Both the position numbers and the translations under genes were made by a program. The notes beneath the pieces were generated by a model. It was not told the origin of the DNA, searched no databases, and was given only the letters and a program-made list of their open reading frames with translations. From the NCBI GenBank assembly GCA_013824615.1, contig PNOC01000038.1:1-35791 (forward strand): a stretch of DNA of 35,791 nt, written 5' to 3'. Below are positions 9,516 through 35,791 of this stretch, one piece after another; within the stretch, counting starts at the first letter, position 1; each line of letters opens with the position of its first letter. Origin of the DNA: Thermodesulfovibrio sp. (GTDB lineage: Bacteria > Nitrospirota > Thermodesulfovibrionia > Thermodesulfovibrionales > UBA6898).

Positions 9516-11649
9516 GCAGGAGTCCTTCACAGATTTTTCTGATCTGCTCATTTTTTGACTGCAATCCCAATTTAAGCAACGCTGTTGCTGACCCGGCTGG
9601 ATAATGCTGGAGACTCCGGAACATCTCCTGCTTCAGCGCCTCACTCCCCGAGCGGTTGAAGAGAGAGGTCGTCCGCACTATAGCTTCAAGGGTCTTTAAT
9701 GCCGTCGGATCACCAATTTCCCCCAGCGCTCTGACAAGGAGAATCTTCAACTCGATATCCCCGCCAAAAAACCGCTGGCGCGCAAGCATCTTCAGAAGCG
9801 TCGGCACAACAATACCGAAGCGGTACATTCCGGAAAATCTGACAACCTGTTTCCGCATCTCGGCATCATCTCCCTCCAGGAACTGCTTTACAAACAATAT
9901 AGCATCAAGGGTCCTGTAATGAATCAGGGTCCTGATGGCTTCGAGAGAGATCTTTTTGTTCTTGTGTCTGGCAAAGCGTCTCACCTGGTCCAGATCCTTT
10001 GCGCTCCCCGCTTCCCTGAGGAGATAGAGCATGTTCCGCACAACATACCAGCGGCTGTCCCCGAGCCGGACCACAACGCTCGGAATAATATCACTGCCGA
10101 GACTGGCCAATATCTGCAGGAGGAAGCGCCTGATTGATGCGTCTTCCGCCTCGGTAAGGACGTTCAGAAGGGGGTCGGTCAAATGCCTTCGCTGGACTTT
10201 AACAAGCCGCTGAGCGCCCTCCCGGTCATACCTTCCCCATACTTTTAAGGATTCCACAAAAGGGTCGATAAACAGCCTGGAGTGGAAATAATAATCCAGC
10301 ACGCCGAGTGCTTCCTCCCTGAATCTGCCGGAGAGGCTGTGGGAGTATATCGTGTTGTAGATATCCGAGATTTCGAAAAATCTGCCTGTTCCAAGCATAT
10401 CATTAACGCTTTCCGTAATCCTGGTGAGCAGGCTGAGGTAGTCCTCACGCGTTGCAACTTCGGCCTCGAGCATTTCAATCATCAGGTCCGCGTATCTCTT
10501 AAACAGGACGCGTTCGGTGCAGGTCTGCAGTATAACGGCTTCCGGCCGGGCTGCTTTATTGAAATCACCCTTCAGCATCTTTTCCAGATCACCCTTATAC
10601 TCCTCAGAAACAAAGGTCCGGGAATTGTCCTCTTTCAGCAGCCGGATTACCTCTGTATCGATCTCGATGTCGTCAACCCGTGAACGGTCTTCGGACAAAT
10701 CCTCGAAAACCGGTTCCTTCAGGGCGGCCGTACTGAGCTTATCAATAATATTCCTGAGACTGTCGGGGATCAGAGATGTGTTCTCGTTGAAAATCCCCAT
10801 CAGCTTTTCGACATCTCCGGCAGACAGGCTTGAAACAAGGTGATCGATGTCCCCGACGTCAAGGAGCTGGTTATTGAAGGCCCGCTTCAAAAACTGCTGT
10901 TTGATCTCAGGGCTGAGGCCCTCGACCAGTTGAAGGAATCTTCCGAACAGCTCTGTCTTCACCCCTTTATATTCCTTGCGCTTCAGGTACGTCGTGATAA
11001 CCTTGTCGTACGTGACACCGGCAGACGGGGTTCCCGCTGCCTGCTGGTTCAGAAATGCGGAAAACTCATCAGGAGGAATGTACAACGCAATGCCTTCGGC
11101 ATCGGAATCGGCAAGATTCCCCTCCAGCAGGGCCTTGATATAATTCCCCCAGATATCCAGGTCGATATCCCCCTGCCGCTCGCCGCCCTCGGTGAACTTG
11201 AGCCTGGATATATCTATCGGGACAAGCTTTATGTGCCTGAGGTCCTTCTCTTCGGCAACCTTCAGCACCGCCTGTCCGATTACTTCGTCCCCGGTTATAA
11301 GAAGTTCATGGAACCCGATAAGCTCTTCAATCTCCAACCCCGAGGTAAAAATAAGGGCGACAATGCCCTTTCTGTAGAGGCTGAGTGCAAACTCCCTGAA
11401 TACAGGGTTTTTCTTGTCGAGAAGGTAATCATCAATCATGAGCACATCTTTTGCAATCCCCAGAGTAATCGTACTTCTTATCTCGAAAAGTCTCTGCATA
11501 AACCCGAAGGCCCGTTGGATCGATTCGCCGACAATCGGATGATCCCGGGGATACAGACTGACACTCCGCCGCGAAATATTCAGTTCTATAACCGCATCGG
11601 TCAGCAGCTTGGCGTCAATTGAAAATTTTTCTGTTTTTTCGTCGGTCAT
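9499..11649 (-). CDS. HEAT-repeat protein sharing an N-terminal module with the HD-GYP protein
   Basis: A 716-residue soluble protein with no signal peptide. The first 120 residues (VSLYPRDHPIV, then TLGIAKDVLMIDD, then LEIEELIGFHELL) match the N-terminus of the downstream HD-GYP protein position for position. The middle is helical and charged. From about residue 500 on, helical repeats of the HEAT type are visible (for example SIRRFLLQILASLGSDIIPS, ISLEAIRTLIHYRTLDAILF and LLVRALGEIGDPTALKTLEA), which usually form a protein-binding solenoid. Its role is unknown; the coupling to an HD-GYP gene suggests a scaffold or adaptor in c-di-GMP signalling. No clear Shine-Dalgarno site precedes the ATG at 11649. 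No enzyme motif was seen. Confidence 0.8.
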   Translation of the reverse strand: MTDEKTEKFSIDAKLLTDAVIELNISRRSVSLYPRDHPIVGESIQRAFGFMQRLFEIRSTITLGIAKDVLMIDDYLLDKKNPVFREFALSLYRKGIVALIFTSGLEIEELIGFHELLITGDEVIGQAVLKVAEEKDLRHIKLVPIDISRLKFTEGGERQGDIDLDIWGNYIKALLEGNLADSDAEGIALYIPPDEFSAFLNQQAAGTPSAGVTYDKVITTYLKRKEYKGVKTELFGRFLQLVEGLSPEIKQQFLKRAFNNQLLDVGDIDHLVSSLSAGDVEKLMGIFNENTSLIPDSLRNIIDKLSTAALKEPVFEDLSEDRSRVDDIEIDTEVIRLLKEDNSRTFVSEEYKGDLEKMLKGDFNKAARPEAVILQTCTERVLFKRYADLMIEMLEAEVATREDYLSLLTRITESVNDMLGTGRFFEISDIYNTIYSHSLSGRFREEALGVLDYYFHSRLFIDPFVESLKVWGRYDREGAQRLVKVQRRHLTDPLLNVLTEAEDASIRRFLLQILASLGSDIIPSVVVRLGDSRWYVVRNMLYLLREAGSAKDLDQVRRFARHKNKKISLEAIRTLIHYRTLDAILFVKQFLEGDDAEMRKQVVRFSGMYRFGIVVPTLLKMLARQRFFGGDIELKILLVRALGEIGDPTALKTLEAIVRTTSLFNRSGSEALKQEMFRSLQHYPAGSATALLKLGLQSKNEQIRKICEGLLHGTSA

Positions 11650-11714
11650 AGTCTATCGTTACTATCCATGATTTATCCCTTTTCAAATGATACGTTATGC
11701 CGGACAAAAACTCA

Positions 11715-11734
11715 ACACAGCGGCACACAGCGGC
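11715..11734 (+). repeat. tandem 10-bp repeat upstream of lgt
   Basis: ACACAGCGGC occurs twice head to tail, ending 20 bases before the TATAAT of the lgt promoter. It covers the place where a -35 box would be, so it could be a regulator site. There are only two copies. Confidence 0.5.
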
Positions 11735-11751
11735 ATGGGCAGGGAAAGAGA

Positions 11752-11760
11752 TGTTATAAT
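11752..11760 (+). promoter_or_regulatory. extended -10 promoter of lgt
   Basis: TGTTATAAT (TGn plus a perfect TATAAT at 11755-11760), with no convincing -35 box. A start near 11767 would give an untranslated leader of about 78 bases before the lgt ATG. That leader contains the shortened repeat copy. Confidence 0.65.
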
Positions 11761-11773
11761 GGAAATTAAACAC

Positions 11774-11823
11774 GACGGATTTGGATGAAGCTCTGGAGGC
11801 ATACGGACTTTTTACAAAGCCGC
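11774..11823 (+). repeat. internally deleted copy of the 126-bp repeat, in the lgt leader
   Basis: Compared with the reverse complement of 3674-3799, the left part GACGGATTTG...AAGCTCTGGAGGC matches one end (23 of 27 bases, the last 13 identical). It is followed directly by ATACGGACTTTTTAC and AAGCCG, the other end (one mismatch in about 22). About 75 internal bases are missing, with the junction at a short GC. The two ends are still complementary, so the leader RNA could fold into a hairpin before the lgt ribosome site. Confidence 0.75.
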
Positions 11824-11844
11824 AATATTTCTGAAGGAGAATTC

Positions 11845-12615
11845 ATGTATCCCGTGCTCATAAAAATCGGTCCCCTGACCATTCATACCTATGGCTTCCT
11901 GATTGCGATCGGGTTCCTCGTTGCGCTCTGGCTTGCAGTCAGAGAGGCAAGGAAAAATGATATTTCCCAGGACAAACTCATTGATCTGGCCTTCTACTGC
12001 CTGCTCGCTGCAATAATAGGATCTCGCCTCTTCTTTATTGCTACAAACTGGGGGTATTACCGGGGCCACCCCGTTGATATGCTGAAAATATGGGAGGGAG
12101 GGCTTGTTTTTTACGGGGGCCTCATCTTTGCCGTTCCGACGGCCCTCTGGTTTATCCGGCGGGCAGGACTGCAGCTCTGGAGGACCTTTGATCTCTTTGC
12201 CCCTTCAATCGCCATCGGCCATGCTATCGGCCGGCTGGGCTGCTTCTGCGCGGGCTGTTGCTATGGAAAACCTGCCGAAGGTCTTCCCTGGGCGGTCATA
12301 TTCACCGACCCTCATACCCTGGCCATTCGGGGGGTCCCGTTGCATCCCTCCCAGATCTATGAAGCAGCAGGGGAATTTATAAACTTTCTCCTGCTGATCA
12401 TGCTGAGAAAGCGTCAGACCTTTGAGGGTCAGCTGTTCTGGGTTTATATCATGAATTACGCAGTCATCCGTGCAGTCATTGAACTCTTCAGAGGAGATGA
12501 AGTGCGGGGCTTTATTGTGCGGGGCATATCGATATCGCAGGGTATCAGTTTTCTTCTGTTTGCCTCCGCAGCATTCATGCTGATAAAACTGCAGAAAGAA
12601 GCCCGGAAGCAATAA
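11845..12615 (+). CDS. lgt: prolipoprotein diacylglyceryl transferase
   Basis: A 256-residue inner-membrane enzyme that transfers diacylglycerol from phosphatidylglycerol to the lipobox Cys of prolipoproteins, the first step of lipoprotein maturation. It has about seven hydrophobic segments. The family motifs are HTYGFLIAIGF (His14 region), GGLVFYGGLI, GHAIGRLGCFCAGCCYG (Arg130 being the catalytic-region Arg) and HPSQIYEA. The Asn of the E. coli GRLGNF motif is Cys here, a change common in Lgt proteins outside the Proteobacteria. I chose the ATG at 11845 (MYPVLIKIG) because GAAGGAGAA lies directly upstream. The ATG at 11785 lies inside a repeat and would add 20 residues foreign to the family. 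Confidence 0.96.
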   Translation: MYPVLIKIGPLTIHTYGFLIAIGFLVALWLAVREARKNDISQDKLIDLAFYCLLAAIIGSRLFFIATNWGYYRGHPVDMLKIWEGGLVFYGGLIFAVPTALWFIRRAGLQLWRTFDLFAPSIAIGHAIGRLGCFCAGCCYGKPAEGLPWAVIFTDPHTLAIRGVPLHPSQIYEAAGEFINFLLLIMLRKRQTFEGQLFWVYIMNYAVIRAVIELFRGDEVRGFIVRGISISQGISFLLFASAAFMLIKLQKEARKQ

Positions 12616-12704
12616 CCAGCAGGCGGGAACACGTATTTCGGCAATACCTCTCATAAAAAAGCTGAACTTCAAGGTGCCGTTTACGGTGAATTTGACATTA
12701 TGCG

Positions 12705-12744
12705 CGTATATGATAAGCTTAAGGAATAAGCAGATTCATATACG
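12705..12744 (+). promoter_or_regulatory. perfect 9-bp inverted repeat upstream of the nitroreductase gene (possible operator)
   Basis: CGTATATGA (12705-12713) and TCATATACG (12736-12744) are exact reverse complements separated by 22 bases, with a TAAGCTTA palindrome between. The left arm overlaps a TATGAT that could be a -10 box. A consensus TTGACA lies at 12692-12697, but its spacing to that box is too short. The right arm ends just before the GGGAGG ribosome site. It could be an operator or a leader hairpin. Confidence 0.45.
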
Positions 12745-12768
12745 GCACTTTCGGGAGGTAATTATTTT

Positions 12769-13392
12769 ATGGATGCACTGCAGGCAATCAGGGAACGCCG
12801 GTCGATCAACTTTTTTGACCCGGACAGAACACTGGAGGATGCTACGCTCAGGGAACTGCTGGAGCTTGCAAACCTCTCCCCTTCATCGTTTAATCTGCAG
12901 CCGTGGAGAGTAATCGCCGTACGCACCCCGGAGCGGAAGAAGGTACTGAGAAAATGCGCCTTTGATCAGCCAAAGGTAGAAGAGGCCTCGGCTGTGTTCA
13001 TCATGATTGCCGACCCCCGCGGACTCGAACTGAATATTGACCGGATGCTCGACAGCTGGACTGCCTTGGGATATATGAAGCCGGAGATGCGGCCAACCTA
13101 CGATGGCATGGCGCGGGGCCTGTACGATGCCGAAGACAGTCTGAAGCGGAAGATTTTTGCGGTAAAAAACACCGCCCTTTTTGCAATGAATCTGATGCTG
13201 GGAGCAAAAGCGCTTGGACTCGAGACCCACCCGATGGACGGCTTTGACGAAGCCTGTATCAAAAAAGAATTCGGCATAGCTGATGATAAAATCATACCCA
13301 TGCTGGTTGCTGTCGGCTATCTGAAGCCCGGGATTACGTTGCTGCCACGCGCCTTCAGAAGAGATATCAGTGAATTTGTCACATTTGAATAG
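12769..13392 (+). CDS. nitroreductase family flavoprotein
   Basis: A 207-residue FMN-dependent oxidoreductase. The N-terminus MDALQAIRERRSINFFDP is the typical family opening, with the FMN-phosphate-binding Arg-Arg-Ser. LELANLSPSSFNLQPWRVIAV is the second FMN-binding segment, and GLETHPMDGFD plus LVAVGYLKPG complete the fold. Members reduce nitro groups, quinones or flavins with NAD(P)H; the physiological substrate here is unknown. GGGAGG precedes the ATG by about nine bases. The gene ends 38 bases before superoxide dismutase on the same strand, so the pair probably forms an oxidative-stress or redox operon. Confidence 0.9.
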   Translation: MDALQAIRERRSINFFDPDRTLEDATLRELLELANLSPSSFNLQPWRVIAVRTPERKKVLRKCAFDQPKVEEASAVFIMIADPRGLELNIDRMLDSWTALGYMKPEMRPTYDGMARGLYDAEDSLKRKIFAVKNTALFAMNLMLGAKALGLETHPMDGFDEACIKKEFGIADDKIIPMLVAVGYLKPGITLLPRAFRRDISEFVTFE

Positions 13393-13430
13393 ACAGGACT
13401 ACTATCAATTAATAAAGGAGGAAAAGAATT

Positions 13431-14009
13431 ATGGCGTATGCAGCAAAAGACTACAGCAAACTCATCGGAATGGAGGGGTTCAGTGAAACCCTCCTGAAAA
13501 ATCACTTCACGCTTTACGGCGGGTATGTAACCAATACAAACAAACTGGTTGATATCCTGGCTCAAATGCTCAAGGATGACAAGACAGCAACTCCTGAATA
13601 TGCCGAACTCAAGAGAAGGTTCGGGTGGGAGTTTAACGGGATGAGGCTTCATGAATATTATTTTGAGAACCTCGGCGGAAAAGGTGCTATTAACAAAGAA
13701 GGAAAGCTGGCGAAACAGGTAGCTGAATGCTTCGGAAGTTACGAGACCTGGGAAAAAGATTTCAGGGCCACAGGCGCTATGCGCGGCATCGGCTGGGGTG
13801 TACTCTATCAGGACCCCGCTAACGGTTGCCTGATGAACGTCTGGGTCAATGAACATGATGTTTCCCATCTTGCGGGCTGCAACCCTATTTTGATCATGGA
13901 CGTCTTCGAACATGCCTTCATGATAGACTACGGGCTCAAACGGCCGGATTACATTGCGTCTTTTTTCAAAAATATCGACTGGGCAGCAGTTGAATCACGC
14001 CTGAAGTAA
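13431..14009 (+). CDS. Fe/Mn superoxide dismutase, Aquifex-like
   Basis: A 192-residue enzyme that dismutates superoxide. The four metal ligands can be placed at His25 (KNHFTLYGGY), His74 (MRLHEYYFENLG), Asp157 and His161 (DVFEHAFMIDYGLKRPDY). The second ligand sits in RLHEYYFENL and not in the usual HNHxFYWN, and the C-terminus has YIASFFKNIDW. Both features match, from memory, the Aquifex type of superoxide dismutase. Metal choice between Fe and Mn cannot be read safely. A strong AAAGGAGG precedes the ATG. There is no signal peptide, so it acts in the cytoplasm. It follows the nitroreductase gene and ends at a strong bidirectional terminator. Confidence 0.93.
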   Translation: MAYAAKDYSKLIGMEGFSETLLKNHFTLYGGYVTNTNKLVDILAQMLKDDKTATPEYAELKRRFGWEFNGMRLHEYYFENLGGKGAINKEGKLAKQVAECFGSYETWEKDFRATGAMRGIGWGVLYQDPANGCLMNVWVNEHDVSHLAGCNPILIMDVFEHAFMIDYGLKRPDYIASFFKNIDWAAVESRLK

Positions 14010-19252: not shown

Positions 19253-22200
19253 CTACTGTATCGAGACACGCTCCACAATGACCGAACCGTCACTGATCGT
19301 AAGCACCCCGGTTAAACCCGTATTCAGCAACGCATTGGTGCTGTAAATGCAGTCCCATCCTCCCCTGAGGATGATATCCTTGCCGAGGTTGAAGTCCGGA
19401 CTTTCGGTCATGTCGATTCCGAGCACATCGACGAATTCTCCGGGCCCTGCGTTGTCATATGCGTCCTGGATCAGGACATAGGGAGTAAACGTTCCGTTTC
19501 CTGCGCGGGCCTTGTTCTGGCAGTCAACCACGGTCACATAATTTCCTCTGGTGCTGCTGTACACATTGCCGTCTCCCCATGACACCAGGGAGACAGAGTA
19601 GAGTCCCGGTTCACGGTATACATGTATCGGGTTTTCGAGCGTATCCGACCAGCCGTCTCCATAGATCCATAGCCAGGCCGAGGAGGAGACAGAAGACTGG
19701 TCCGTAAAACTCACCACAAGGGGCGCCCCCCCGGAGAGAGGCGTTGCCGTAAAATCGGCCAGCAGATTAAATTGTGCCTGCACAACCCTGGGGCCCTCCA
19801 TCAAAACCTGGCAGGGATTCACGTTCCCGCTGCAGTTGCCGGTCCAGCCGCCGAAGTCCGAACCCGGGTTCAGCACCGCAGTCAGTTCCACGGAAGTCCC
19901 GTCATCATAGATCGCTGAACAGCCGGCACCGCAGGTTATTCCGGCCGGACTGCTGGTGACCATACCGCCGCCGTTGCCGAGCCGGGATACATCGAGAGCC
20001 CATTGTGACAAGGTGGCGCTTCCGCTCAGAGAAGACGAAAGGGGTGAACTGCTGCTGACTATATCCAGCGTCGCTGACTTCGGCCCGATCGTCGTGGGAT
20101 AGAATCGTACCGTAACGGTACAGGAACCTCCCGGTACGATGACCGACGCCGAGCACGTATCGGGCGCCAGGGAGAACATGGCGCTGTCGGCCCCGCCGAT
20201 GCTCACCGTATCGATCGTAAGATTATCCGCGCCGCTGTTATAGACCGTGACCGTCAATAAGCTTTCCGTATGCGTGCCGATCGTGCCGAATTCGCTCAAC
20301 GAAGGGCTCGCATTGATCGCAACGTTCGCGAAGGTCTGGAAATTCCACGTGTATGGTTGGGCAAGGTTGTTGCCGGCGGCATCCGTTATCCCTGTCCCCA
20401 CGGTGGCAGAATAAAGGGTCGCATGCGAAAGAGGCGAGGACGGGGTAAAGACAACACTGTTGTTTACGCCGTCATAACTTACCGCTCCGGCAACGGGATT
20501 TCCTCCGGCAGTAACCTCAAAGGTACCGCCTGTCACCGTTATGGGATCGAGTGGTTTATTGAAGAAGGCCTTGACCAGGGGATAATATGAGGCAGGCCCG
20601 AATTGCTGGACAGATACCGCAATATTGGTGCTGTCAGCAGGCGTCACCGAGGTTACCTGCGGCGGTGTCGTGTCAGCCGGTGATGGACTGATAACGATCG
20701 TCACGGTCGCAGGGTCGCTGACGGTCGTGCCGTTGTCCGCCGTGACCGTAAATGAATCGGCACCCGACAGCTCCAGATCACTCGTATACGTAAGATTCGG
20801 CGGAGTACCGGTGAGGGACCCCTTCGACGGCTGACTCGCTATGCTGAAGCTGAGAGGCTGGCCTCCCGGATCGCTGCCGGTGAGGATAATTCCGACCGGC
20901 AGACCGGAGATGGCCGCAACGGTTTGAGGAGCGGCACTCACAGGCTTGACCACAGAGAGGACTGCATTCGTCGGGGTGATTTCAGGAACGCTCGGAAAGT
21001 GAACTTTCGCTGTTCCGATTATCTCAGCCCCGATAGATGCGCCGGACTTGACCACCGCGGTAAATGAAACCGTGCCCCCCTGTCCTGCAGTCAGATCCCC
21101 GGTCTCCCAGAAAATCGTCCGCGTACCGGGGTGATAGATTCCCCCGTTTTGGATCAAAAGAGAGGTTTCATCCAGATAGGGGCTGACTGCACCCGTGACA
21201 AAGACTCCATAGGCAGTGCCGACACCCTCGTTCTGATATTCGATCGTGTACGTCAATGTCTGCCCCCTTGTTACGTCTCCTGAAGGGCCATGCAACAAAT
21301 TGGGGTCATGGGCCGTCACGACCTCTCCGGTATCGCAGGACTCGCCGTTCTGGGGCTGGCAGCAGCTGCACTGTCCGTTCCTGCAGACCTGCCCGTGAGC
21401 ACAAAGGGCACAGAAGGTTTTCTCTGTGCCGTAGGCCCATATCCCGCCAGCCGTACATCTGTTCGTGTAGATCACCACATCCTGCCCCAGTATGTTCTGC
21501 TCAAACCAGCTCCCCTTCGTGCAGTAGGTGTGATCCTGTGTGCACCGGTAGCAGTTTGCACCCGGGACCTGATCAGCGCAACGTCTGCAATCCTCGTTGC
21601 ACTGGACAATATCAATGGCCTCACCGACAAACGGAAGATCCTCTATAAGGCCGAGACAGTCGGTGCAGTCGCTGGGGTTCTGGTCGCTGCAGCCGCTGCA
21701 TTTGCTCCCGCCTATCACCTTACTGACAATATCACCACCATACTTGGACAACAGCCAGATGGGGATCTTTGGCAGAATGCAGCCCCACATACATTCGCCG
21801 TATGAGGGGCTGTGGATCTTCGCCCAGTCCCCCTGAATCTCGGTAGAAAACGAGTTGAAATTGAAGGCAACAGCACCATCGATTCCTCCCACGGCATACT
21901 TGTCCGCCTCGACATACTCCAGGAAGCTTCCCGTTGCATTAACGAGAACAGCGGCCACCTGTTTTGTCGAAGGGTTTATCATCAAAATGCGCTGTTCCTC
22001 TGAACTGTCGCTCAGAACATGAAACGTCCCGACACCATAGTCCCGGTATCCCTGGGCCAGGGCCTGATCATACAGTGCCTGGACAGCAGGTGCCCCGCCC
22101 AGGAGTGCGGCAATATCACCTGCATTCAGGGAACCCCTGGACGTAACCGTCCTGGGCGAGTAAGTGAGATATTCGGTTATGTCCTTGGGAGAGACCAGAG

Positions 22201-25200
22201 GGCCGCTCCAACCGATCCAGGCACTCAGGTGAAAGGGAGTATGGCCTGCAATGCCCCAGGGTACTTCGACCGTAGCAGTTAGATCCCCGCTGTAACCTGC
22301 CGGGACTGTGCCGAGCCTCCAGAACATCTGGTTATGCTTCTTGTGATAGATGCCGTCCTTGGAGGACTTGATCTTAAACGGAGGCAGGTCGAGGACTATG
22401 ACCACATTGTCCAGGGCTACGCCGGCAATGTTGGCGTAGCGGATGACATAATCGATCCTGTCACCAACCATCACCTGCTTCGGGCTGTAGAGCTTTATCC
22501 ATTCGGCATTTATCGTGGTTGATACGGAAGATCCGTTGTTGACGAAGTTCGACTCAACAGAGGTGCTGTGCCCGTCAACCGCGATCCAGAGCGGCATGCC
22601 GGCAACGAGGGGAACAGCGACAACGGTGATAGTAGTGCTGGCGCCATTGGCCAGATCACCAACACTGCATGATGCTGTATTAGTCCCAATGCAACTGCCC
22701 TGTCCAGAGATGATGGAGGTGATCATCCCGTTCAGGGGAACGGTCAGGTTCACCACGATCCCCGTTGAAGTGTCGGGCCCATCGTTTGTGACCGTGACGG
22801 TGAAGGTGACCGGCTGCCCGACATCGGTCGAGGAGGGATTCGCGGAAGTCGCGATCCTGAGGTCGGACCTTGGTCCGGAATTATTGATGAGAGGCGTGAT
22901 CGAGTATCTGCTCCCGGAGTTCTGGCCTGCCAGGATATCGGTCTTCCCGTCGCCGTTGAGGTCAGCGGTATCGAGTGCAAAGTTCGAAACATTGCCTGTG
23001 GCCAACCGCACGGCAGGGCCAAAGGTGCCGTCTCCCTTGCCGGCAAAGACGACGACGGACTGCCCTGTTACCGCAGCCATGTCGAGATTGCCGTCACCGT
23101 CGAAATCAACAAGCCGTATTTCGGCAGGATACGGCCCTGCGCCGTAAAACACCGGTACTGCAAACGTGCCGTCGCCGTTCCCGAGAAAGACATAGGCTCC
23201 ACCGCCTCCGAAACCGACGAGGTCAAGGTTCAGATCACCGTCGAGATCTGCCGAATGGAAGTCGTTCATCTCGGGCAGGTCATAACTTGCCGACGTCGGG
23301 GCAGCGAAGGTCCCGTCACCGTTTCCGCTAAAAAAAAGCAGCCGGTCGGGCGACCCGCCAGCCCTGGCATGCGCAATGATATCACTGTTCCCGTCATCGT
23401 CAAAATCACCGGTACCAAGGGCATACCCGGGATATCCGGGAAGAGGATCAAGAATTAGCGGAGTAAATCCCGCGGCACGGGCAAACGTCCGGGGAGAAGC
23501 AGTATTGTACAGAAACACTTCGATTCTTCCGTTATCACCTCCGGGATTGTCAGCCCAGATGGCGATATCCGGTGAACTGTCATTATTGAAATCCGCAACA
23601 GATATGTTTCTCCCTGCCCAGCTATCAGTATTGGCAAAGAGCGTGTACGAAGGGAACGTTCCGTCCCCGCTTCCAAAGGCAACGATATTTCTCGGTGCAG
23701 GTCCGCCCTGGACACCTCCTGTTGCAAGCCAGGCAACGTCGGGGTTGTTGTCCCCGTCAAAATCAGCGGCCTTCAGCGAATTGTAGAACTCGCCCGGTCC
23801 GGAAATGTGGCCAAGACCAACTGTCGAACCGGCAAAGGTCCCGTCCCCGTTGCCCCTCATGAAGTCCAGCGCATCGGTAATAAGGACAGCATCCGCCTTG
23901 CCGTCATTATCGAAATCTCCAGCTGCCAGGCTCTTCGTTGTGGTTGATAACCCTCTTGCAAGCTGAAAAAGACTAGGGGACCGAAACCGTCCCTGCGTGT
24001 CCCCGGGCAGGTACGAGAGGCTGCCGTTACGGGCGTTGTTGGAGGATTCGCCCACTACCATGTCCGGATTGCCGTCGGCGTCAAAATCCGCGAATATTAC
24101 GCTCGTGGGGTTTCCTCCGTCCACATTGACGCTGTTGTTTCCCGTCGTGGCTGCTGCAGCAGTATATACAAAGGGAGTGAAGGTCCCGTCGCCGTTGCCG
24201 AGGCCGACGAGGACCTCGTTCGAGCCGTTGCCAACAGGGACAATTATGTCAGGGTTCCCGTCGCTGTTGACATCCACGATCTCCTTCTGACTGTAACTCG
24301 ACGAGAGCCAATCGATCATGGGTGTGAAGTTGACGTCCGGAATCGGATCGAATGTCCCGTCACCCTTCCCTGGCACAAAGGCAAGACAGTTGGTGGAGCA
24401 GCCCGGTCCGCTATAGCCGTTGATTACGATGTCGCTGCTGCCGTCCTTGTTGAAGTCGCCGATGGAAAGGCCTATTACCTGCATTCTGGCTGGATACTGC
24501 GCAGAGGAAAAAACACCAAGTCCGTTGTTGCTGAACACCGTAAGATTATTGTCGTTATAGCTCCCCGCCACGATATCGGGGTTGCCGTCGTTGTTGAGGT
24601 CGGTAATAGCAAGGTCCTGGGGATTTGTGCCCGTGACATAATAGACAGGGGCGGCGAATGTCCCGTCACCGTTTCCAAGCAGCACCGCAATCCTGCTTTC
24701 GCTTATGTTGAGGGTGACGATATCGGGGATTGAGTCGTTATTGAGGTCACCCTCCTGCAGCTTGTACGGAGCGCCGTTCCCCGCCGTCGTGAGTGAGATC
24801 GGGACAAAAGTACTGAAGGTCCCGTCCCCCCTGCCCTTGAAAAAGAGGACATTGTTGCTCCCGTGAAAATCCGAGGATGCAACCGCCAGGTCGGGTACAC
24901 CGTCCATGTCGAAGTCCCTGGCAATGGTTCCCATACCAAAGGTGTTGTAGGCACCGGTAGGCAGGGTTATTTTTATCGGGGCCTTGAACTGGCTATTGCC
25001 CTCGCCGAGGAGCACGCCGATATATCCGACACTGCTTGCCGAATACGTGACAGCGATATCGGGCTTGCCGTCATTGTTGAAGTCGGCCTTTGCCAGACCG
25101 CCGACCGAGCCGTCGTTCGTAAAGGTCAGCGGCAACGTTCGGGGCTGCTCAAATGAGACCGCCCCATAGACCTCGCCGCAAAATAGAAGGCCAACAGCAA

Positions 25201-25231
25201 CAACAAGCGATAGAAGCCGTTTGCTGATCAT
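19253..25231 (-). CDS. giant secreted FG-GAP repeat protein with DUF11, Ig-like, Cys-rich and PKD regions
   Basis: A 1992-residue exported protein. It has a signal peptide (MISKRLLSLVVAVGLLFCGE, cleavage near VYG-A). Residues about 28-785 contain 14 FG-GAP/VCBS repeats, each with a DxDxDGxxD-like Ca site (for example DFNNDGKPDIAV), enough for two seven-bladed propellers. Then follow DUF11-like domains (about 787-1000), a globular part, a Cys-rich stretch with about 20 Cys (1137-1314), another DUF11-like domain, an Ig/cadherin-like domain (1432-1513), an SbsA-type Ig domain (1517-1633), a choice-of-anchor D-like domain (1637-1740), a GGWTGNC repeat domain, and a PKD domain (1823-1900). No C-terminal sorting signal is seen. 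The ATG at 25231 has GGGAGG before it and is preferred to 25249. It is probably a surface or released adhesin; the ligand is unknown. Confidence 0.88.
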   Translation of the reverse strand: MISKRLLSLVVAVGLLFCGEVYGAVSFEQPRTLPLTFTNDGSVGGLAKADFNNDGKPDIAVTYSASSVGYIGVLLGEGNSQFKAPIKITLPTGAYNTFGMGTIARDFDMDGVPDLAVASSDFHGSNNVLFFKGRGDGTFSTFVPISLTTAGNGAPYKLQEGDLNNDSIPDIVTLNISESRIAVLLGNGDGTFAAPVYYVTGTNPQDLAITDLNNDGNPDIVAGSYNDNNLTVFSNNGLGVFSSAQYPARMQVIGLSIGDFNKDGSSDIVINGYSGPGCSTNCLAFVPGKGDGTFDPIPDVNFTPMIDWLSSSYSQKEIVDVNSDGNPDIIVPVGNGSNEVLVGLGNGDGTFTPFVYTAAAATTGNNSVNVDGGNPTSVIFADFDADGNPDMVVGESSNNARNGSLSYLPGDTQGRFRSPSLFQLARGLSTTTKSLAAGDFDNDGKADAVLITDALDFMRGNGDGTFAGSTVGLGHISGPGEFYNSLKAADFDGDNNPDVAWLATGGVQGGPAPRNIVAFGSGDGTFPSYTLFANTDSWAGRNISVADFNNDSSPDIAIWADNPGGDNGRIEVFLYNTASPRTFARAAGFTPLILDPLPGYPGYALGTGDFDDDGNSDIIAHARAGGSPDRLLFFSGNGDGTFAAPTSASYDLPEMNDFHSADLDGDLNLDLVGFGGGGAYVFLGNGDGTFAVPVFYGAGPYPAEIRLVDFDGDGNLDMAAVTGQSVVVFAGKGDGTFGPAVRLATGNVSNFALDTADLNGDGKTDILAGQNSGSRYSITPLINNSGPRSDLRIATSANPSSTDVGQPVTFTVTVTNDGPDTSTGIVVNLTVPLNGMITSIISGQGSCIGTNTASCSVGDLANGASTTITVVAVPLVAGMPLWIAVDGHSTSVESNFVNNGSSVSTTINAEWIKLYSPKQVMVGDRIDYVIRYANIAGVALDNVVIVLDLPPFKIKSSKDGIYHKKHNQMFWRLGTVPAGYSGDLTATVEVPWGIAGHTPFHLSAWIGWSGPLVSPKDITEYLTYSPRTVTSRGSLNAGDIAALLGGAPAVQALYDQALAQGYRDYGVGTFHVLSDSSEEQRILMINPSTKQVAAVLVNATGSFLEYVEADKYAVGGIDGAVAFNFNSFSTEIQGDWAKIHSPSYGECMWGCILPKIPIWLLSKYGGDIVSKVIGGSKCSGCSDQNPSDCTDCLGLIEDLPFVGEAIDIVQCNEDCRRCADQVPGANCYRCTQDHTYCTKGSWFEQNILGQDVVIYTNRCTAGGIWAYGTEKTFCALCAHGQVCRNGQCSCCQPQNGESCDTGEVVTAHDPNLLHGPSGDVTRGQTLTYTIEYQNEGVGTAYGVFVTGAVSPYLDETSLLIQNGGIYHPGTRTIFWETGDLTAGQGGTVSFTAVVKSGASIGAEIIGTAKVHFPSVPEITPTNAVLSVVKPVSAAPQTVAAISGLPVGIILTGSDPGGQPLSFSIASQPSKGSLTGTPPNLTYTSDLELSGADSFTVTADNGTTVSDPATVTIVISPSPADTTPPQVTSVTPADSTNIAVSVQQFGPASYYPLVKAFFNKPLDPITVTGGTFEVTAGGNPVAGAVSYDGVNNSVVFTPSSPLSHATLYSATVGTGITDAAGNNLAQPYTWNFQTFANVAINASPSLSEFGTIGTHTESLLTVTVYNSGADNLTIDTVSIGGADSAMFSLAPDTCSASVIVPGGSCTVTVRFYPTTIGPKSATLDIVSSSSPLSSSLSGSATLSQWALDVSRLGNGGGMVTSSPAGITCGAGCSAIYDDGTSVELTAVLNPGSDFGGWTGNCSGNVNPCQVLMEGPRVVQAQFNLLADFTATPLSGGAPLVVSFTDQSSVSSSAWLWIYGDGWSDTLENPIHVYREPGLYSVSLVSWGDGNVYSSTRGNYVTVVDCQNKARAGNGTFTPYVLIQDAYDNAGPGEFVDVLGIDMTESPDFNLGKDIILRGGWDCIYSTNALLNTGLTGVLTISDGSVIVERVSIQ

Positions 25232-25316
25232 CGTTCCTCCCGGGGTCACCCCTGCCTTGTTGCGTCTGTTCTATCTGTTATGACGCGGGGCCGGATGTTG
25301 AGAATACATAACTATT

Positions 25317-32258: not shown

Positions 32259-35078
32259 ATGCGTCTTGTTCTCAACCTTATCAGAAACAAACCCTCATTC
32301 CGGACCGGTACACGTTTTAGCACAGGATTCAGGTATTATAAAAGCATAAGCGATGGATCCGGCCACCCAGACCTGCCGGGAAAGGACCAGCAATTGTCAG
32401 GTATTGATGACAGCGTATCGTCGGATTCCGGGGCGAGAACAGAGCTGACCGGCTCACAGGCCGCTGCTGCAGAAACTGCGGCAGCACTTCGCAGTATTGA
32501 CCTTTTCTCCTCACTTTCGGAAAAACTTCTCAGCCGGCTCGCTTATGATTCAAGGCGTCTTACCTATAAAGCCGGCACCAGAATACTCTCTCACACTGAT
32601 AAAAATGAAGATTATTATGTAATTATCTCGGGCTCTGTCCGCGTGTACCAGGTGACTGACACCGGCGAGGAGGTAAGTTTTGCGACACTGGGCCCGGGCG
32701 AGGGGTTCGGGGAAATTGCCCTGCTGACGCAGGCGCCAAGATCTGCCTCGGTGGCCGCAGTGTCGGACAGCGACCTCCTTCTCATTCCCAGAGATGCATT
32801 AATACGTGTCATTTTTTCTAACGCGGAGGCCTCGATGCAGTTTGCCCGCGTTCTGGCCGAAAGACTTACCAGAGGGAATATACACCTGATAGAGGTTGCC
32901 AATACTGAACACTCCTACCGCCAGTTCATTTCTGAGCACCTGAGACCTCAAGAGCCGCAACTGCCGGGCGAAAGCCTGCAAGTTCTGAAATTGCACGAAG
33001 AAATAAGTGCACTGTCTGAGTGTTCTGACCGAGTGCTTGTGCAGGGAGAACCGGGCACCGAAGTCTGGGATGCTGCCAGTCTCATTCACCAAAGCGGGCC
33101 GGTGCGGCAGGGTATTCTGCTCGGCCTGGATGTCAGGACGCTGTCTGTTCCGCCTCATGCAGCCCTCGACCCTGAGATAATCCCCTACATGCTGGACATG
33201 GTCCAGAACAGCCTGCTGTACGGAAGAAAAATGAATGCCCTCTCTTTTGCCCCTGATTCCCGGCCCGGGCTGCTGCAGATGGCGGCTGCAGGCACACTTA
33301 TCATTGAGCATCTGGAACACCTGACGCCGGATGTACAGAAAAAACTCTTCAAATGCATTACTGAAGGGAGCTTTTCACCTGTAGGTGAGACAAAGCCCAT
33401 GGCAATGAATGCGCGCATAATATCTACGACAAATGCCGACCTTCAGGCCATGGTGGACGCCGGCACATTCGACAGAGGACTATTTGAACTTCTGGCCCAA
33501 AAAACGATCACGGTGCCCCCTTTGAGAAAACGGAAGAAAGACATCCGGGCAATACTCGACCGCCTTATTCTTCAAACCCAGAGCCAGACTGACAAAGCGG
33601 TCAGGGGAATATCCGGGGAGGCCTATAAAGCCCTGATGGCCTACGGCTGGCCGGGCAACCGTGACGAGCTTAATACAGTCCTGCGGCGGGCCATAAGCAT
33701 CAGCCGGGGAGAGGAACTCCAGATAGAAGATCTTTTTATCGGGCCGCCACCGGTCACCGGGAGGGTCGCTTTCAATCTGCTGAAGCTGGATTTTGTCCGC
33801 AAAGTTTTCAGCAATGCGACCCTGCGACGCGCGCTCCAGTTCTGCATTGGAGGCTTCATAGCGGCAATAATTATTTCAGGCATAGCAGGAAGCCAGCAGG
33901 CGGAGTCTAACAGCACGATCGTTCTGACCTGGGGACTGTGGGAACCGGCCCTGGTAATCAGCGCTTTCTTCGCGGCCCGGCTCTGGTGCAGTGCCTGCCC
34001 CATTGGAGCAGCCAGTTCCTTTCTCGGCCGCACTATCGGCCTGCGACGCAAGGTCCCGCAGTTTCTCAGGGAATATGGCATATATTTCAGTGCTGCCGGG
34101 CTTGCCCTGATATTCTGGTCAGAATCCGCCTCCGGCATGATCAGTTCCCCTCGCGCCACCTCTTTGCTCATTCTCTCGGTGGTCCTCGGAGCTCTCATCG
34201 TCGGCCTGCTCTACCGCAGACGGGCCTGGTGCAGGTTCCTTTGCCCCCTTGGGGGAATGGTAGGGCTTCTCTCCAGCTGTTCTGTAATCGAAATGAGGTC
34301 CAATTACAATATCTGCAACAACGATTGTAAAACACATGCCTGCTATGCCGGTGAAGGCGCCTACGAAGGCTGCCCCATGTATGAGGGACCGTTTTCCCTG
34401 AGTTCAAATCTTAACTGCATCCTCTGCGGAAAATGCATCGGCGCGTGCCCTAACAAGTCACCAGTTCTGAATCTTCGCCTGCCTGCACATGAACTCTGGA
34501 CCGCGAGAAGTCCTGAAAAAGGGCTCGTAGCCCTCGGCCTTACCCTCATAGCAACACAGCTGTTCAGAGGTCTTGAGATGGCGGGAGTCTTTGGCCTTCA
34601 TGCAACAGGGCCCGGCAACTGGTGGAAGGTCTCGATCCCGATTTTCCTGGGGCTGATGGCCCTGACCTATTTGGCTTTCCGTTATCTGGGCAGACTGGTT
34701 TTTCCCGCTGACAGCATTGAGAAAGGCAGATCTTTAGGCCTCTTCATCTACGGGCTTATTCCCCTGGCTGTAGCCTTTGAGATGGCTTTTCATACGGGCC
34801 GCCTGCTGACAATGGGAGGAAGTCTGCTGAATGTACTGGGAAGACAAATGGACTGGTCTTATGAATCTCCGGCACTGACCGTCCCGGGTGCTGTGGTAAA
34901 AGTATTCCAGATACTGTTTATCCTTCTGGGCTCTTTCGCTTCTCTGGGCGTTTTTTCGAAGCTCCTCAGGAGTGAAAGGCCTTGTGATAGTCCCCGCCCC
35001 TCCGGCATCAGACAGGCCTGGCCCCTGCTGATCCTTACCTTTGGCTACCTGCTTTTTTTTATGCGGGCAGCAGGCTGA
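32259..35078 (+). CDS. fusion of cNMP-binding domain, inactivated sigma-54-type AAA+ domain and membrane polyferredoxin
   Basis: A 939-residue protein with an unusual domain order. Residues 78-205 form a CRP-type cyclic-nucleotide domain with an intact phosphate cassette (FGEIALLTQAPRSASV, Gly151, Glu152, Arg161). Residues 240-495 are recognisable as a sigma-54 activator AAA+ domain (GTLIIEHLEHLTPDVQKKL, MNARIISTTNADLQ, VPPLRKRKKDIR, YGWPGNRDELN). However, Walker A reads GEPGTEVW without the Lys, Walker B has lost its Asp-Glu, and the GAFTGA loop is missing. In place of a helix-turn-helix there are membrane segments (from about 525) and a NapH/NosR-like part with CSACP (577, 580), CRFLCP (658, 662), a Cys cluster at 686-705 and CILCGKCIGACP (720-730). 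It is probably a membrane redox protein gated by a cyclic nucleotide. The N-terminal 75 residues look disordered; a TTG at 32394 with GGAAAGGA upstream is an alternative start. Confidence 0.85.
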   Translation: MRLVLNLIRNKPSFRTGTRFSTGFRYYKSISDGSGHPDLPGKDQQLSGIDDSVSSDSGARTELTGSQAAAAETAAALRSIDLFSSLSEKLLSRLAYDSRRLTYKAGTRILSHTDKNEDYYVIISGSVRVYQVTDTGEEVSFATLGPGEGFGEIALLTQAPRSASVAAVSDSDLLLIPRDALIRVIFSNAEASMQFARVLAERLTRGNIHLIEVANTEHSYRQFISEHLRPQEPQLPGESLQVLKLHEEISALSECSDRVLVQGEPGTEVWDAASLIHQSGPVRQGILLGLDVRTLSVPPHAALDPEIIPYMLDMVQNSLLYGRKMNALSFAPDSRPGLLQMAAAGTLIIEHLEHLTPDVQKKLFKCITEGSFSPVGETKPMAMNARIISTTNADLQAMVDAGTFDRGLFELLAQKTITVPPLRKRKKDIRAILDRLILQTQSQTDKAVRGISGEAYKALMAYGWPGNRDELNTVLRRAISISRGEELQIEDLFIGPPPVTGRVAFNLLKLDFVRKVFSNATLRRALQFCIGGFIAAIIISGIAGSQQAESNSTIVLTWGLWEPALVISAFFAARLWCSACPIGAASSFLGRTIGLRRKVPQFLREYGIYFSAAGLALIFWSESASGMISSPRATSLLILSVVLGALIVGLLYRRRAWCRFLCPLGGMVGLLSSCSVIEMRSNYNICNNDCKTHACYAGEGAYEGCPMYEGPFSLSSNLNCILCGKCIGACPNKSPVLNLRLPAHELWTARSPEKGLVALGLTLIATQLFRGLEMAGVFGLHATGPGNWWKVSIPIFLGLMALTYLAFRYLGRLVFPADSIEKGRSLGLFIYGLIPLAVAFEMAFHTGRLLTMGGSLLNVLGRQMDWSYESPALTVPGAVVKVFQILFILLGSFASLGVFSKLLRSERPCDSPRPSGIRQAWPLLILTFGYLLFFMRAAG

Positions 35079-35262: not shown

Positions 35263-35289
35263 AAGACTGCTGAAGTGACCGGTTTTATG

Positions 35290-35320
35290 GGGGCAGAAGT
35301 TTATTCTGCCCCTTTCTTTT
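35290..35320 (+). terminator. rho-independent terminator after the Cys-rich frame
   Basis: A 9-bp perfect stem GGGGCAGAA (35290-35298) and TTCTGCCCC (35304-35312) with a GTTTA loop and a T-rich tail TTTCTTTT. It lies 27 bases after the stop at 35262, which supports that frame being the end of the transcript. Confidence 0.88.
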
Positions 35321-35469
35321 GACGTTTTCCTGCCACTGCTACGGCATCAATTGAATGAGAGAACCCGGCTCAGGCAGCGCAAGGACTAATGACAATTTCG
35401 CAACGAGATCCCCTGGCAGGCAGGTATTCTCCTCTGATTCCTCTCGGATTGAGAAGAGCTGCGGGGGAC

Positions 35470-35791
35470 CTAAGCCCTCCGCCTCGTTATCTGTAAGACC
35501 GCGGCAAGTCCGGCAATAAGCATAAAGAATATCATGCCCCACTCGTTCATCGTCGGCACCGCCGCCACGGCAGCCGTATTGACGGTGAGTGCGTAGCTGC
35601 TGCTGCCGCTGCAGTTGTTTGCATCCGAAGCGGTAACCGTAAAGTTGAAGTTTCCGCCCTGTATCGGCGTGCCGGACAATAATCCCGTTGATGACAGGCT
35701 CATGCCGGAAGGCAGTGCTCCGCCGGTTATCGCAAACGTCACGGTCCCGATGCCTCCTGATCCGCCAAACTGGATGTTTGGATAAGGGCTG
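35470..35791 (-). CDS. C-terminal end of an IPTL-CTERM surface protein with a putative Ig domain (runs off the window)
   Basis: The minus strand is open from the window edge to TAG at 35470 (106 residues visible). It carries a He_PIG-type putative Ig domain (VTFAITGGALPSGMSLSSTG, then LLSGTPIQGGNFNFTVTASD). The C-terminus VPTMNEWGMIFFMLIAGLAA plus a basic RRR end is an IPTL-CTERM signal: a PTxxEWG motif, a hydrophobic helix and a basic tail, the kind linked to exosortase-like surface sorting. It would be an exported, surface-attached protein. The beginning lies outside, so its size and role are unknown. The 35321-35469 stretch before it shows nothing I can identify. Confidence 0.85.
   Translation of the reverse strand, partial: SPYPNIQFGGSGGIGTVTFAITGGALPSGMSLSSTGLLSGTPIQGGNFNFTVTASDANNCSGSSSYALTVNTAAVAAVPTMNEWGMIFFMLIAGLAAVLQITRRRA

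Follow-up and report, generated by a model that had tools for sequence, protein, structure and literature searches.

In a stretch of 35,791 nucleotides of DNA from Thermodesulfovibrio sp. (hereafter the window), we identified a single open reading frame (32259–35078) that encodes, in this order, a cyclic-nucleotide (cNMP) binding domain, a sigma-54-type AAA+ domain with its lid, and a membrane part of about nine segments that contains 12 cysteines. The architecture is new and widespread, and it is built from known domains: 43 relatives with the same domain order were found in Nitrospirota, Desulfobacterota and on two cyanobacterial plasmids. No description of the combination was found in the literature searched, most subscription journals being outside reach. 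We propose, at what we judge to be about an even chance of being right, that the protein is a sensor-gated membrane electron-transfer protein composed of a NapH-like module and a dead AAA+ domain that acts as coupler. Electron transfer, quinone use, gating and the identity of the ligand are what we infer; the domains, motifs and conservation behind this reading are described below.

The frame lies on the plus strand, as do all features described here unless stated otherwise, and comprises 939 codons as listed, without internal stop. The listed start at 32259 is doubtful: a ribosome-binding site and conservation are both absent there, and profile similarity to the relatives starts only at 32412. 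Judged by its context, the TTG codon at 32394, preceded by GGAAAGGA, would be a better start candidate, in which case the product would have about 894 amino acids.

A profile search returned cNMP_binding, Sigma54_activat, AAA_lid_14 and Fer4_5, all above their curated Pfam cut-offs. More specifically, the cNMP-binding domain occupies residues 101–187 (32559–32819; PF00027, 2.1e-21), and its closest solved structures by sequence are protein kinase A regulatory subunits. The phosphate-binding cassette, FGEIALL-x4-PRSAS, matches the consensus, including FGE and the Arg of PRxA, and is intact as had been claimed. In CRP/FNR regulators an HTH follows the cNMP domain, whereas in the window protein none was found by Pfam and the AAA+ domain comes next. 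The sensors at the N-terminus differ among fused members, some having cNMP only, some cNMP with GAF (L133 and L134, where GAF domains are placed between cNMP and AAA+, and P0006/L025, judged by its length and sequence), and one (L140) an extra FHA domain with cNMP. Control by a cyclic nucleotide, the second part of the original proposal for this domain, is plausible for the window's clade, where Glu152 and Arg161 are both kept in 7 of 9 members, but it is not constant across the family, given these GAF and FHA variants and the retention of the cNMP Arg in 14/40 fused proteins by column scoring.

The AAA+ core (residues 237–417, 32967–33509; PF00158, 7.2e-22) is of the sigma-54-activator type. 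Its predicted fold superimposes on NtrC1 (1ny5) with a Z of 29.8 and an rmsd of 1.4 over 250 residues, and PspF and NtrC1 are its nearest solved relatives by sequence. The ATP site is degenerate at every motif. The P-loop within Walker A (QGEPGTEVW, 33042–33068) reads GEPGTEV against the consensus GxxGxGK, with the Lys lost and Glu268 in place of a P-loop Gly; Walker B (33291–33317) reads GTLIIEHLE against GTLFLDEIG, with Glu at the Asp position and His at the catalytic Glu position; and GAFTGA is absent from the former L1 loop (33213–33275, LLYGRKMNALSFAPDSRPGLL). The lid (residues 423–492, 33525–33734; PF25601, 1.6e-14) is the best conserved portion of the AAA+ third, with 44–57% identity to the full-length Nitrospirota relatives except the GAF-bearing one, and at its sensor II site (33639–33698) WPGNRDEL stands against WPGNxREL, the Arg being lost. 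Pfam and motif alignment together confirm the earlier description of an AAA+ domain that keeps its fold markers without Walker A Lys, Walker B acids or GAFTGA; the Arg fingers and the sensor II Arg, losses absent from that description, are missing as well. It had also been claimed that the DNA-binding end was replaced by membrane segments, and this holds: Pfam found no DNA-binding domain in the window protein, and about nine membrane helices take its C-terminal place.

Compared with sigma-54 activators (bEBPs, such as NtrC1 and PspF), the window protein therefore shares the AAA+ core and lid fold but is membrane-bound and lacks the Walker A Lys, Walker B Glu, Arg fingers, sensor II Arg, GAFTGA and the DNA-binding domain, the last of which is missing also from a few true bEBPs. 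TyrR, DhaR, HupR and VpsR, which are soluble DNA-binding regulators, resemble it in having an activator-type AAA+ domain that does not serve sigma-54 any more; the fusion protein differs from them in that its entire ATP site is gone and a membrane redox module forms its C-terminal end. All four have been described as activator homologues with a defective GAFTGA (PMC3162934).

The loss of ATPase residues extends across the family. The alignment comprised 42 fused proteins (window included) and, as controls, nine canonical activators, of which six come from the window's own genome and three are soluble cNMP activators. At the columns for the Walker A Lys, the Walker B Asp-Glu, sensor II and two Arg fingers, every control reads K/D/E/R/R/R. 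Among the fused proteins, the Walker A Lys is retained in 28/41, among them L039 and L040; the Walker B Asp is kept in 1/41 and the Walker B Glu in 0/41; the first Arg-finger column keeps its Arg in 2/41 and the second in 0/41, and the sensor II Arg is found in 2/42. No fused row contains GAFTGA, the nearest forms being GAFADA (L025) and GTFATA (L130). A homologue with a complete ATP site had been named as evidence against the original prediction. The complete residue set occurs in none of the 41 fused proteins scored by column, the set being incomplete even where the Walker A Lys is kept, and among the homologues it is intact only in three soluble proteins (L157–L159). By this alignment, the hydrolysis residues are missing throughout the sampled fused family, and many Desulfobacterota members may still bind nucleotide. 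All nine proteins of the window's clade (the window, L013, L014, L023, L024, L034, L035, L036 and L128) have Glu for the third P-loop Gly (GExG[TA]E), which would place a negative charge at the phosphate position; judged by sequence, the ATP site of the window protein is very probably really empty.

The C-terminal membrane part matches Fer4_5 (2.4e-9) and begins with a NapH/NosR-like membrane polyferredoxin core (33771–34568) made of TM1–TM4, CP motifs and a cytoplasmic ferredoxin-like loop, followed by the poorly conserved TM5–TM9 (34518–35069), which were placed by AF2 helices and hydropathy. Counts of K+R in successive loops (4/0/5/0/10/0/3/1/3) follow a positive-inside pattern, and the sensor, the AAA+ domain and every Cys motif are therefore predicted to be cytoplasmic. 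The cysteines are arranged in a CX2CP motif (WCSACP; C577, C580; 33984–34001), a CX3CP motif (WCRFLCP; C658, C662; 34227–34247), a first ferredoxin-like motif of unusual spacing, CX3CX4CX9CP (C686, C690, C695, C705; 34314–34373), and a second, CX2CX2CX3C (C720, C723, C726, C730; 34416–34448). All 12 Cys are present in 42/42 fused proteins, together with Arg574 and the membrane Glu622. The original prediction counted four iron-sulfur motifs. Two of them, CX3CX4CX9CP and CX2CX2CX3C, can hold two [4Fe-4S] clusters, but the two CX2-3CP motifs are of a kind whose Fe-S binding is unproven: in NosR, NapH and RdhC such binding has not been established for the CX3CP motifs, and at most 8 Fe were found per NosR (PMC5928378). 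Two [4Fe-4S] clusters rather than four would be the safer expectation despite the 12 Cys.

The window protein has the four-helix membrane core of NapH/MauN and the NosR/RdhC module, along with a pair of CX2-3CP motifs and ferredoxin-like Cys motifs on the cytoplasmic side; it differs in that its first ferredoxin motif is degenerate, that five further helices follow at the C-terminus and that cNMP and pseudo-AAA+ domains are fused to its N-terminus. Its best NCBIfam match is napH_ at 54.2 bits, far below the cut-off of 213. The periplasmic FMN-binding domain of NosR/RdhC was not found in the window protein by Pfam, and the NosR model gave 14 bits against a cut-off of 1000. AF2 models were of moderate confidence (mean pLDDT 68–70), with a low-confidence ferredoxin loop. 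A fold look-up of the membrane half returned low-Z helical matches only (best 6.4), and a PDB sequence search with the same half returned short ferredoxin matches only, results with which a known fold is still compatible.

The relatives were collected in several searches. Two full-length relatives came from the window's family, and a phylum search added three, together with one membrane-only protein. A first scan of genome contigs with a single protein as query gave no match; a second scan yielded nine full-length proteins from Nitrospirota and Desulfobacterota, of which one, from the Desulfobacterota member Desulfosediminicola flagellatus (L040), is encoded on a closed chromosome (NZ_CP050698.1). 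Profile searches located the fusion in 20 of 395 Desulfobacterota genomes, some with two copies, the membrane half only in 26 and soluble cNMP+AAA+ proteins in 3, and among 396 Nitrospirota genomes the fusion in 7 and the membrane half in 4. None of 398 Pseudomonadota genomes, a set without positive control, matched at E 1e-75. The two cyanobacterial plasmids carry full-length members with the family's AAA+ and lid (L184:5884-9521 and L185:5404-9095). Counting that of the window, the fused proteins number 44, of which a few are truncated at contig ends. In a close pair (L013/L014), dN/dS came to 0.16 in the cNMP domain, 0.21 in the dead AAA+ and 0.20 in the membrane part; on these ratios, every domain is under purifying selection and the dead AAA+ is as constrained as the rest. 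Public records name relatives 'nitrogen assimilation regulatory protein' or 'sigma 54-interacting transcriptional regulator', names that are probably misleading. Another Pseudanabaena plasmid (NZ_CP112876.1) holds a partial, broken-up copy with 95% identity over 25%. Stand-alone membrane halves of about 455–500 aa (L026, L147–L156, L166, L186 and L187) also occur in Nitrospirota and Desulfobacterota, as well as on one Deinococcus and one haloarchaeal plasmid.

With NosR-like paralogues of the window's family as root, the tree of the membrane domain unites all fused proteins and 11 stand-alone membrane proteins. These 11 form a clade that is placed with the window's subclade at 100/99 support, and a twelfth stand-alone protein branches outside. 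A quick tree of the AAA+ domain places the fused AAA+ parts on one side of a branch and all canonical activators on the other (SH-aLRT 100). The simplest reading of these trees would be a single old fusion followed by N-terminal loss in the stand-alone clade, though long branches leave doubt. The original view, in which an activator chassis came to be fused with a membrane redox protein, is supported. The soluble L157, L158 and L159 have, like the fused proteins, a cNMP domain ahead of an activator AAA+, with an HTH-like end in L157 and L158; they differ in keeping all ATPase motifs and GAFTGA and in having no membrane part. The AAA+ tree does not place them as sister to the fused clade, and they could be cNMP-responsive activators of separate origin. 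Elsewhere in the window's own genome (C45, L002:907-2952), a gene conserved in the family encodes a 681-aa NosR-like membrane Fe-S protein that is distantly paralogous to the membrane half, and the adjoining gene (L002:2949-3512) has a product that looks FMN-binding-like.

The redox module appears to be the conserved function of these proteins, because the 12 Cys, Arg574 and Glu622 are kept in 42/42 while sensors and ATP-site residues vary; the combination of varied inputs with an unvarying redox module points to this module as the output. NapH and NosR, the closest characterised modules, are described as taking part in electron transfer, and NapH has been proposed to oxidise quinol (PMC5928378). 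In our proposal, the NapH/NosR-like module would be the constant, working part, exchanging membrane quinone-level electrons with two cytoplasmic [4Fe-4S] clusters and then with a soluble partner. The variable N-terminal part, a cNMP-competent domain in the window member, would sense a cytoplasmic signal. The AAA+ third, derived from a sigma-54 activator, would have lost ATP hydrolysis and, in the window protein, probably ATP binding; it would serve as coupler, possibly as oligomerisation unit, and the first membrane helix would receive the state of the sensor through the lid and a conserved linker (GPPPVTG...FNLL). Supporting this reading, the window's genome encodes two class III cyclases, each with both metal-binding Asp present, and at one locus (L036) the gene at 10338-13850, directly after the fusion gene, encodes a class III cyclase + AAA_16 + TPR protein. 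Counting against it are the lack of a linked partner enzyme at the Nitrospirota and Desulfobacterota loci compared, the variable cNMP Arg, the lack of a clear solved-structure match for the membrane half and the moderate AF2 models. Rather more doubtful is the idea of a family of second-messenger-gated respiratory switches, in which the pseudo-AAA+ domain would couple cAMP or another ligand directly to quinone-linked electron flow, without transcription. If true, a membrane electron carrier under the direct control of a second messenger would offer a fast, post-translational means of steering anaerobic respiration. An AAA+ motor that lacks motor residues in every sampled fused member and is still selected can reveal non-hydrolytic roles.

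The main rival to sensor-gated electron transfer is a membrane redox sensor, in which the clusters or the quinone site would be the input and the cNMP/pseudo-AAA+ part would bind and control a partner protein by redox state. We consider this fairly unlikely: Fe-S modules can sense redox, signalling-type domains make up the N-terminal two thirds and no redox partner gene is linked, but the N-terminal domains are themselves sensors and are variable while the redox part is invariant, and Pfam found no output domain. A membrane-held inhibitor, whose dead AAA+ domain would join or block hexamers of true activators, could draw on the activator-like fold noted above and on more than 20 activator-type AAA+ proteins in the window's genome as pairing candidates. 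The GAFTGA loop for sigma-54 contact is lost throughout, however, and a sigma-54 role is further argued against because the cyanobacterial plasmids keep the full-length protein in a phylum reported to be without sigma-54 (sigma-54 and its activators were absent from 29/29 cyanobacteria examined; PMC3162934), which makes this explanation highly improbable. Scarcely credible is an assembly artefact or a decaying fusion: a broken ATP site and the origin of the contig in a 96-contig draft could speak for it, yet purifying selection acts on all domains and 43 other loci have the same architecture. These relatives, one of them in the closed chromosome, rule out the misassembly or frame fusion that had been put forward as the event that would overturn the original prediction, and the fusion is real.

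Gene neighbourhood bears on the partner of the protein. Among the 25 fused loci compared in Nitrospirota and Desulfobacterota, there were no conserved functional neighbours and no co-encoded partner enzyme, the sole shared neighbours being the Desulfobulbaceae housekeeping genes hisD, rsmG, leuB and prs. In both cyanobacterial plasmids, a cysteine synthase gene comes next after the fusion gene, at 5 and 17 bp, and DsrE, glutaredoxin and rhodanese genes lie near one of the two loci. The partner may therefore lie in sulfur metabolism. The same genes would also suit an assembly or maturation factor, that is, a signal-controlled redox helper, perhaps in sulfur or metalloenzyme metabolism; this we regard as improbable, since no such linkage turned up at the loci compared from Nitrospirota and Desulfobacterota, and the two plasmid loci may represent one transfer.

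A search for sigma-54 promoters across the window stayed at chance level. A possible intrinsic terminator lies downstream (35289–35313), found by a consensus scan only, such sites being about equally frequent in shuffles. On the minus strand, the window contains an open frame of 1998 aa at 19253-25249 and another ORF at 35339-35791, whose C-terminus (VPTMNEWGMIFFMLIAGLAAVLQITRRRA) resembles a cell-surface sorting signal.
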